Shown: piece after piece, positions 2,086 to 5,383 of the stretch | How positions within the stretch are numbered: position 1 is the first letter of the stretch | Layout: every line of letters starts with the position of its first letter | Assembly (NCBI GenBank): GCA_026985075.1 | Contig: JALSQX010000033.1 | Span: forward strand, 248,001-312,000 | Length of the DNA stretch: 64,000 nt | Origin: Blastocatellia bacterium | GTDB taxonomy: Bacteria; Acidobacteriota; Blastocatellia; HR10; J050 | Reading direction: 5' to 3' | Program-made: the position numbers and the translations under genes | The notes under the pieces: generated by a model | Databases searched by the model: none | The model's input: the letters and a program-made list of their open reading frames with translations, nothing else | Told to the model about the DNA's origin: nothing

Positions 2086-3138
2086 TCAGGGGACGACGTG
2101 CACTCGGCCGACCGGTCCTTCGATAACCTCTCCGATCACGGCAGCGACCGGAGTGCGGTACTCGGTCAGTTTCTCCACCAGGGCATCAGCCTTCTCCGGG
2201 GCCACAGCGATGAGGAGTCCTCCCGAGGTCTGGGCATCACAAAGAACTAATTGCACGGCTTCGCTCACCTCATCGTGCCAATCAATGGAGGAAGCCAGAT
2301 ATTGATGATTCCGACGACTGCCCCCGGGGATGGCCTTTTGTTCGATTAATTCCCAGGTCGACGAGAGCACAGGCACGCGAGAGGCTTCGATACGAGCGCC
2401 CACCCCACTGGCCGTCAACATCTCCAACAGGTGTCCCAACAGCCCGTATCCGGTCACATCGGTGGCCGCATGCACCCCCACGTCGACCATGGCTCGAGAG
2501 GCCCCATCGTTGAGTCGAGCCATGAGCGCGATGGCGTCTTTCTCCGTCGCCGCATCGACCAATCCCCTCTTGATTCCCGTCGTGATGATCCCTATCCCCA
2601 ATGGCTTGGTCAAGACGATGACGTCGCCCACTCGAGCCGTGGCATTGGTGATGATGTGATCAGGATGACAGATGCCCACGACGGCTAATCCATACTTCGG
2701 CTCCACATCATCGACGCTGTGCCCGCCGATGATGGCCACACCCGCTTCTTGCGCCTTCTCCGCCGCTCCCACCAGAATCCGCTCCAGGACGTCGAGGGGA
2801 AGTTTCTTGGTAGGGAATCCGACGAGATTCACGGCCACCAGCGGTCGTACGCCTTTGGCATAGATATCGCTGAACGAATTGGCCGCGGCGATGGCCCCAA
2901 ACCAATAGGGATCGTCCACCACGGGAGCGAAGAAATCCGTAGACATCAGCAGGACCATCTCGTCGTTGAGACGGTACGCACCAACATCATCCGAACTCCC
3001 CGGTCCGATGAGGACGTTGGGATCGGTGAGCGGCGGCAGAGCGCGCAGTACCTGAGTCAGGTCTTCCAGACCCAGCTTACACGCTCAACCAGCGCCGTGA
3101 CTCATCTGCGTCAATCGAACCCGTTCGGTTTCACTCAT
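2086..3138 (-). CDS. selD: selenide, water dikinase (selenophosphate synthetase), selenoprotein with UGA-encoded Sec18
   Basis: Makes selenophosphate, the selenium donor for Sec-tRNA and selenouridine, from selenide and ATP. Read through the in-frame TGA at 3087-3085, the protein has 350 residues, the normal SelD length. The N-terminus MSETERVRLTQMSHGAG is followed by U-A-C-K, matching the E. coli catalytic loop GAGCGCK (Cys17, Lys20). Sec18 replaces the catalytic Cys, Cys20 and Lys21 are kept, and Ala replaces the intervening Gly. Downstream are the Asp-rich ATP/Mg segment SSDDVGAY, STDFFAPVVDDP and the GGHSVDD region. If the TGA is read as stop, only a 290-residue fragment lacking the active-site loop remains. 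A SECIS-like hairpin follows the UGA. The -10 box lies 10 nt before the ATG. selA, selB and selC are not in this window. Confidence 0.93.
3053..3087 (-). promoter_or_regulatory. bacterial SECIS-like element in selD
   Basis: Starting at the UGA (3087) the mRNA can form an apical hairpin GGTCT (3072-3068), loop GGA (3067-3065), AGACC (3064-3060), with a closing helix TGAG (3087-3084) and CTCA (3056-3053). The loop begins with GG 17 nt after the UGA, within the spacing known for bacterial SECIS elements. Thermodynamics not computed. Confidence 0.7.
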
Positions 3139-3148
3139 AGAGACGTTG

Positions 3149-3177
3149 ATTATATTGGCCTGGGGTGGAATTGCCAA
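3149..3177 (-). promoter_or_regulatory. promoter of selD (near-leaderless)
   Basis: On the minus strand TTGGCA (3177-3172), a 17-nt spacer, and TATAAT (3154-3149). Only 10 nt separate the -10 box from the selD ATG, so the predicted leader is about 3-4 nt. Confidence 0.65.
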
Positions 3178-3208
3178 GGACCGCCCCGGCGAAACGGACA
3201 ATATTCCC

Positions 3209-3236
3209 TTGCATGATTTGTCGGAATCAGTATTAT
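3209..3236 (+). promoter_or_regulatory. promoter of the ADP-forming acetyl-CoA synthetase gene
   Basis: TTGCAT (3209-3214), 16-nt spacer, TATTAT (3231-3236), about 20 nt predicted leader before ATG 3263. Divergent from the selD promoter. Confidence 0.5.
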
Positions 3237-3262
3237 TGCTTGGGAGCAGAGGCGAAGAGCTT

Positions 3263-5383
3263 ATGGGAGACTCGCTCGACTCCATCTTCAGACCGAGATC
3301 GATTGCTGTCATTGGCGCGTCCCGTCGTAAGGATTCCATCGGTCACATGATTCTCCACAACCTCCTCGAACTCGACTTCAACGGAAAAGTGTTCCCCGTC
3401 AATCCCCATGCCGATGTCGTTCACTCCATCAAGTGCTTTCCCCGCATTTTGGATATTCCCGACGAGGTCGATCTGGCTATCATCGTCGTCCCCCGGAACC
3501 GCGTGCTCGCTGTGGTCGACGAGTGCATTCAAAAGAACGTGAAAGCCCTCATCGTCATCACGGCCGGATTCAAAGAACTCGGTCCACAAGGAGCTCGATG
3601 GGAACAGAAGCTGGTCGCCAAAGTGAAGTCCGCCGGCCTTCGTCTCCTCGGTCCCAACTGCATGGGAGTCATCAATACCGATCCCGACGTACGGATGAAT
3701 GCCACCTTCGCTCCCGTCGCTCCGGGGCCGGGTCCCATCGCTTTCACCACTCAGTCGGGCGCGCTGGGCGTCGCCATTCTCAACATTGCTCACCGCGTGG
3801 GGCTCGGCTTCTCCATGTTCGCTTCCATGGGCAACAAGGCCGACGTGTCCGGTAACGATCTCCTCGAATATTGGGATCGCGATCCCCGAACCAAAGTCAT
3901 CCTCATGTATCTGGAGTCGTTCGGTAATCCCAGGAAATTCACGCAACTGGCTCGACGCATCAGCAAACGGAAGCCCATCATCGCGCTCAAAGCGGGCCGA
4001 ACGCGACAGGGGGCCATGGCCGCTTCGTCGCACACCGGGGCGCTGGCCGGTCTCGACATCGCCACCGATGCCCTCTTCGAGCAGTGTGGTGTGCTCCGGG
4101 CCTATTCGGTTGAGGAACTGTTCGATCTCGCCTTGGGATTCAGTCATTGTTCGATCCCTCGCGGTCCTCGAGTGGCCATCGTCAGCAATGCCGGAGGACC
4201 GGCCATCATGGCCACCGATGCGTGCGTGAATATGGGCCTGGAGATCGCTTCCTTTTCGGCGAACACCATCGCTCAGCTCCGCGAGTTCCTGCCCGAAGAA
4301 GCCGCGGTGAAGAATCCCGTGGACCTCATCGCCTCGGCAACGGCGGAGCGATACCGGTTGGCGCTGAATACGGTTCTCGCCGATGGCAATGTCGATGCGG
4401 CGTTGGTCATCTTCGTCCCCCCCATCATGGTCGATCCTAACGACGTCGTGGAAGCGCTCCTGGAGATCAAAGCTCGCCACGAGAAACCTCTCCTTGGCGT
4501 CTTTATGGCTTCGGAAGAGTCCCTCCAGGAGATTCGGCGACGCACCAGCGGAACCGTGCCCATCTACCTCTTCCCCGAATCGGCGGCGCGCGCTCTCGCC
4601 GCCCTGGCCGAATATCGCCGCGTTCAGCAACGGGAAGAGGGAACCATCCCTCACTTCCCCGTCAGTCAGGACATCCCTCGCAAAATCATCGATGCCGTGC
4701 GGAGCGAGGGGCGGCTTCACCTGAACTCCGCCGAAGCGCTCAGCATCCTCAATGCTTATGGCATTCCCACCTGCGCGTTTGGGTTCGCGACGACGCGGGA
4801 GGAGGCCGCAACCGTGGCGCGGGAGATCGGATACCCCGTGGTCCTCAAGATCCTGGCCCCAACCGTGGTTCACAAATCGGACGTGGGCGGCGTCATCCTC
4901 GATATTCGAAACGACGATGAACTCATTCGAGGATACGAGAATCTCCTGGAGAAAGCCGAGCGCCATGGCCTCTCCAAGGATCTGGAAGGCGTCATGATCC
5001 AGCGCATGCTGCGCGGGGGTCGAGAAGTGGTCATCGGTATGGCCCACGATCCTCAGTTCGGCCCACTGATCATGTTTGGACTGGGAGGCATCTATGTGGA
5101 AACGCTCAAAGATGTCGCCTTTCGCATTTGGCCGATCACCGACGTGGACGCCCGCGATATGATTCGGTCGATCCGAAGTTACCCCATCCTCAAAGGAATG
5201 CGAGGCGAAGAGTCGGTTCACTTCCCGCTGTTAGAAGAAACGCTCATGCGCGTCTCTCAACTGGTTGGTGATTTCCCGGAAATCGATCAGCTCGATATCA
5301 ATCCCTTCATCGCCAGCCATAACCCCGATGCCTCCAAAGCCGTGGACGCGAAAATAATCCTCAAAGCCACTCCCCAATCTTGA
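3263..5383 (+). CDS. acetate--CoA ligase (ADP-forming), fused alpha and beta subunits
   Basis: Interconverts acetyl- or acyl-CoA + ADP + Pi with the acid + ATP + CoA, conserving the thioester energy as ATP. The 706 residues contain a CoA-binding Rossmann domain (IFRPRSIAVIGAS near the N-terminus), a succinyl-CoA ligase-like region (TTQSGALGVAI; SSHTGALAG with the likely phospho-His at 257), and a C-terminal ATP-grasp domain from about residue 480 (VVLKILAPTVVHKSDVGGV). In archaea the two halves are often separate subunits; here they are fused, as in many bacteria. An in-frame ATG at 3146 would overlap the divergent promoters, so 3263 is chosen, with AGAGGCGAAG upstream. Acyl specificity cannot be read from sequence. 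An AMP-forming synthetase is also present at 50210. Confidence 0.9.
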   Translation: MGDSLDSIFRPRSIAVIGASRRKDSIGHMILHNLLELDFNGKVFPVNPHADVVHSIKCFPRILDIPDEVDLAIIVVPRNRVLAVVDECIQKNVKALIVITAGFKELGPQGARWEQKLVAKVKSAGLRLLGPNCMGVINTDPDVRMNATFAPVAPGPGPIAFTTQSGALGVAILNIAHRVGLGFSMFASMGNKADVSGNDLLEYWDRDPRTKVILMYLESFGNPRKFTQLARRISKRKPIIALKAGRTRQGAMAASSHTGALAGLDIATDALFEQCGVLRAYSVEELFDLALGFSHCSIPRGPRVAIVSNAGGPAIMATDACVNMGLEIASFSANTIAQLREFLPEEAAVKNPVDLIASATAERYRLALNTVLADGNVDAALVIFVPPIMVDPNDVVEALLEIKARHEKPLLGVFMASEESLQEIRRRTSGTVPIYLFPESAARALAALAEYRRVQQREEGTIPHFPVSQDIPRKIIDAVRSEGRLHLNSAEALSILNAYGIPTCAFGFATTREEAATVAREIGYPVVLKILAPTVVHKSDVGGVILDIRNDDELIRGYENLLEKAERHGLSKDLEGVMIQRMLRGGREVVIGMAHDPQFGPLIMFGLGGIYVETLKDVAFRIWPITDVDARDMIRSIRSYPILKGMRGEESVHFPLLEETLMRVSQLVGDFPEIDQLDINPFIASHNPDASKAVDAKIILKATPQS

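Follow-up and report, generated by a model that had tools for sequence, protein, structure and literature searches.

An acidobacterial selD gene with an in-frame UGA predicted to encode selenocysteine at the active site

Introduction

In the selenide,water dikinase SelD of E. coli, Cys17 and Lys20 are essential. SelD proteins with selenocysteine (Sec) at the site of Cys17 have long been known and are common (PMC4561486, PMC5029168). Among bacterial selenoprotein families, Sec-containing SelD ranks second in how widely it is distributed (PMC5029168, PMC13188914), and in a prokaryotic reference set 19% of the SelD genes contain Sec (PMC4561486); Sec-to-Cys changes have also been reported for SelDs (PMC1794560). 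Selenoproteins have been described sparingly from Acidobacteria, with four known for the whole phylum as of 2006 (PMC1794560) and three in Occallatibacter riparius (PMC12013277).

Here we analyse a selD gene in a 64,000-nucleotide stretch of DNA (herein the window) from a Blastocatellia bacterium. Like the described bacterial Sec-SelDs, it has a predicted Sec codon where E. coli SelD has Cys17, a predicted bacterial SECIS (bSECIS) just downstream, and SelA, SelB and tRNA-Sec encoded in the same genome. There is no essential difference between them; the window gene comes from an order of acidobacteria whose readable SelDs all have the TGA. The arrangement of SelD as a selenoprotein is well known and common; more unusual is the expanded set of predicted Sec redoxins in this genus.

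Results

The start, internal TGA and stop of the window selD were read from the sequence and its translation (Table 1). A conventional ATG call gives a frame of 290 residues (2958-2086) and loses residues 1 through 60, and with them U18, K21 and, further on, the conserved DD that belongs to the segment binding metal and ATP. As originally predicted, this frame continues upstream past one TGA to the ATG at 3138, and the standard reading omits the active site, including the Sec/Cys and Lys positions; the annotation is corrected accordingly, as standard calling cuts the gene off at its active site. With TGA taken as U, the product has 350 residues and the N terminus MSETERVRLTQMSHGAG-U-ACKLG. It matches the curated selD model TIGR00476 with 375.4 bits (cut-off 125; HMM match beginning at residue 8) and PRK00943 with 363 bits (cut-off 299). 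E. coli SelD (PDB 3u0o) is homologous over nearly the full length and aligns from residue 5, its catalytic loop matching without gaps and the shared SHGAG-C/U-x-CK in register; U18 and K21 pair with C17 and K20 when the TGA is taken as a residue. The residue-by-residue correspondence to the E. coli catalytic loop that had been proposed for the extra N terminus is borne out by this alignment, with U at Cys17 and Lys three positions on. The two proteins differ in that E. coli SelD has Cys where the window protein has Sec, and Gly where it has Ala next. This Ala had been pointed out as a departure; its presence is confirmed, but it is the norm, being found in all 66 further loci that were read (see below), and was dropped as an oddity.

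Table 1. Features of the selD locus in window coordinates
Feature	Position	Strand	Details
selD, selenide,water dikinase	2086..3138	-	350 codons, one of them an in-frame UGA (Sec18), followed by the TGA stop (2088-2086); start ATG 3138-3136
Predicted Sec codon, in-frame TGA	3085..3087	-	aligns with Cys17 of E. coli SelD
N-terminal catalytic loop MSETERVRLTQMSHGAG-U-AC	3079..3138	-	skipped by conventional gene call; conserved in relatives
Predicted bacterial SECIS region	3037..3084	-	strong stem-loop beginning right after the UGA
Promoter-like site TTGGCA-17-TATAAT	3149..3177	-	consensus match 11 of 12; hexamers and spacing kept in same-genus genome

The genome assembly (5.2 Mb in 105 contigs, 98.7% complete) contains one strong tRNA-Sec match (72.8 bits), identified by ARAGORN as tRNA-SeC with anticodon TCA, together with SelB (370.9 bits, cut-off 242) and SelA (577 bits, cut-off 268). 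The absence of selB and selC had been set in advance as a ground for giving up the prediction; both are present, and selA as well. Decoding of UGA as Sec by this organism is supported by these three components and by the conservation of the TGA. No selDABC cluster is seen, as tRNA-Sec is on contig C103, SelB on C27, SelA on C63 and selD on C33. A backup SelD of the Cys type was not found in the assembly; the other SelD-like matches are weak (at most 31% identity), as expected of PurM/HypE/ThiL-type relatives.

A clear SelD is encoded in 54 of 58 genomes of the class. Exactly one in-frame TGA is present in selD in 43 of the 58, which argues that the TGA is not there by chance; ten genomes, all of one family (f6), have a selD lacking an in-frame TGA, and in one (G003) SelD ends at a contig end. 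At the 29 class loci where the codon at the Cys17 site could be read, it is TGA in 19, TGC or TGT in 10 (family f6) and nothing else; for the remaining 24 TGA genomes the evidence is the count of one TGA in selD. When 84,980 species genomes were scanned, another 66 loci could be read (Desulfobacterota, Myxococcota, Chloroflexota, Planctomycetota, Bacteroidota and others; a few are acidobacterial), with TGA in 56, TGC or TGT in 10 and no other codon. Comparison of SelD N termini, one of the checks originally proposed, returned only TGA or a Cys codon at the readable loci of both sets. The comparison shows predicted Sec to be the usual SelD residue throughout the acidobacterial class, with one family excepted. 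SelD, tRNA-Sec and SelA are missing together from three relatives whose genomes are 97 to 99% complete (G050, G055 and G057). Three other genomes (G017, G025 and G053) each have two tRNA-Sec matches above the cut-off.

In the exceptional family (f6; loci L024-L033), TGC or TGT replaces the TGA within a loop reading AKRAGCAAK. In a maximum-likelihood tree its SelD is the sister of the window SelD clade (support 99/93), and three Sec/Cys changes suffice among the 93 SelD sequences of the tree. On this tree, read without a root, a Sec-to-Cys change in f6 is the simpler reading and the probable one. Like the genome of the window, the f6 genomes retain SelA and tRNA-Sec, so they presumably encode selenoproteins other than SelD.

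We modelled the RNA downstream of the UGA for a bSECIS. In the window gene this region folds strongly, with a minimum free energy (MFE) of -22.8 kcal/mol, and 17 nt past the UGA it holds a candidate apical hairpin (UGGGUCU-GGA-AGACCUG) with a GGA loop and a 7-bp stem. Loop, stem, spacing and region MFE agree with the published criteria (PMC13188914). Compared with 400 synonymous recodings, the MFE of the whole region gives p = 0.033, and the isolated hairpin (-5.4 kcal/mol) gives p = 0.09 and is not significant by itself. A group test compared G-containing apical hairpins 16 to 37 nt after the UGA with synonymous recodings: across 45 non-redundant Sec SelDs the hairpins clearly and significantly exceed their recodings in strength (mean z = -1.99; 45/45 at or below -4 kcal/mol), whereas those of 14 Cys SelDs do not (mean z = -0.21). 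The sequences in this test are kin, so that p-values overstate their independence and the group result is support rather than proof. The position of the hairpin differs by family (17, 26 or 33 nt after the UGA). For the window selD the hairpin is accordingly given as one candidate for the SECIS fold.

The original prediction had also given selD its own promoter. The hexamers match the consensus closely, and in a sister species of the same genus both of them and their spacing are unchanged though the spacer sequence differs; that the site is a promoter is read from the consensus, and we call it promoter-like. An mRNA starting from it would be near-leaderless, with a 5′ leader of a few nucleotides. 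A divergent gene (3146-5383), probably coding for a CoA-binding protein of the acyl-CoA synthetase type, starts about 0.1 kb from selD and shares the short intergenic region with it.

Among the 28 AhpC/TSA-family genes of the genome (G000), eight have one TGA each, and one thioredoxin-like gene also has one. In all nine (L061-L068 on contigs C20, C44, C102, C71, C65, C87, C73 and C57, and L081 on C3), the TGA falls at the redox-active position: FTPGU, WTPVU, FWUPFC, WUGVC, WUPYC, WUKFC, YYUPKD, YTUPPF and TUGAC. L068 (C57:12428-12859, minus strand) matches the iodothyronine deiodinase family PF00837 (T4_deiodinase; 2e-30) with the motif FGSYTUPPF and is a candidate deiodinase-like selenoprotein in an acidobacterium. 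Eight AhpC/TSA genes with a TGA are likewise present in a same-genus genome, against one or two per genome in the members of the family and order that were searched; predicted Sec use is expanded at the level of the genus via thioredoxin-fold genes. With SelD, the nine redoxins bring the candidate selenoproteins of the genome to at least 10, a lower bound given by targeted stretches and family searches, which lies above the six-gene threshold for a "selenoprotein-rich" organism (PMC5029168). No Sec formate dehydrogenase was detected, as none of the TIGR01591 matches contains a stop or TGA. Selenouridine synthase (TIGR03167) was not found in the 58 genomes, in agreement with the statement that Acidobacteria lack the selenouridine trait (PMC1794560), and Thioredoxin_4 (PF13462) had no match over the cut-off. 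When the window was scanned by codon bias for further genes split by a TGA, no candidate was convincing; the scans also missed selD itself and so have little power.

Discussion

The output of a standard gene caller, a 290-residue frame, could be taken to mean that selD is broken by a nonsense mutation or that translation starts at the internal ATG (2958) and yields a truncated protein. We consider this extremely improbable: throughout the class both the TGA and the 17 codons before it are conserved, the nearest relatives differ mostly at third positions, and truncation would strip residues conserved in E. coli and Aquifex SelD from a genome that keeps SelA, SelB and tRNA-Sec yet has no other SelD found. 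Next to no weight can be given to a sequencing or assembly error for TGC or TGT, even if TGA is one base away from a Cys codon. Such a misreading had been named at the outset as a way for the prediction to fail; the single in-frame TGA is conserved across separately assembled genomes (43/58) and further loci (56/66), which speaks against an assembly slip, and the downstream hairpin signal goes with the TGA versions and is missing from the Cys versions.

That a UGA can be retained and read through without Sec is known from insect SPS1 genes (PMC4561486), and the selD UGA might likewise be read as Trp, Cys or another residue, by global reassignment or unguided readthrough. Since selD itself ends in TGA, the codon still terminates and there is no global reassignment. 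Decoding by anything other than Sec is further made most unlikely by a proper tRNA-Sec with anticodon TCA, by a Sec machinery that is whole here and lost together with selD in relatives, and by redoxin TGAs that all lie at catalytic Cys sites. We are left nearly certain that the window gene is an intact selD encoding a Sec-containing selenophosphate synthetase, its UGA decoded via SelB; judged from these sequence comparisons, the in-frame TGA is almost certainly read as Sec at the active site.

With Sec at this position, the ribosome would pass the UGA using Sec-tRNA-Sec brought by SelB and guided by the stem-loop just downstream. Sec in the flexible N-terminal loop would then take part in forming selenophosphate from selenide and ATP, a catalytic role that we infer from known SelD biochemistry, and SelA would turn selenophosphate into Sec-tRNA-Sec, including that needed for SelD itself. 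The proposal that the SelD product serves the making of its own precursor is supported, given that the genome yielded no further SelD of the Cys type. SelD needs Sec and Sec needs SelD; with no Cys backup found, the genus is a clean setting for the bootstrapping question.

We think it probable, with some reserve, that this genus represents a selenoprotein-rich lineage of Acidobacteriota that has gone unrecognised, with a Sec trait upheld by SelD and expanded Sec redoxins (peroxiredoxin-like, TlpA-like and deiodinase-like) and with neither Sec formate dehydrogenase nor selenouridine synthase. This departs from the pattern in which most Sec-decoding species without FdhA had the selenouridine trait (PMC1794560), and at least 10 candidates with neither enzyme detected bear on how the Sec trait is maintained. 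The literature searched, with partial coverage, makes no mention of a selenoprotein-rich acidobacterium.

A molybdopterin oxidoreductase (L048; G000:C27:1-14627) lies a few kilobases downstream of selB, together with a probable fdhD. This TIGR01591 match was considered as a Sec formate dehydrogenase and ruled out, as it is a Cys form (DGVCDGCALG); we take it to be a YdeP-like oxidoreductase.
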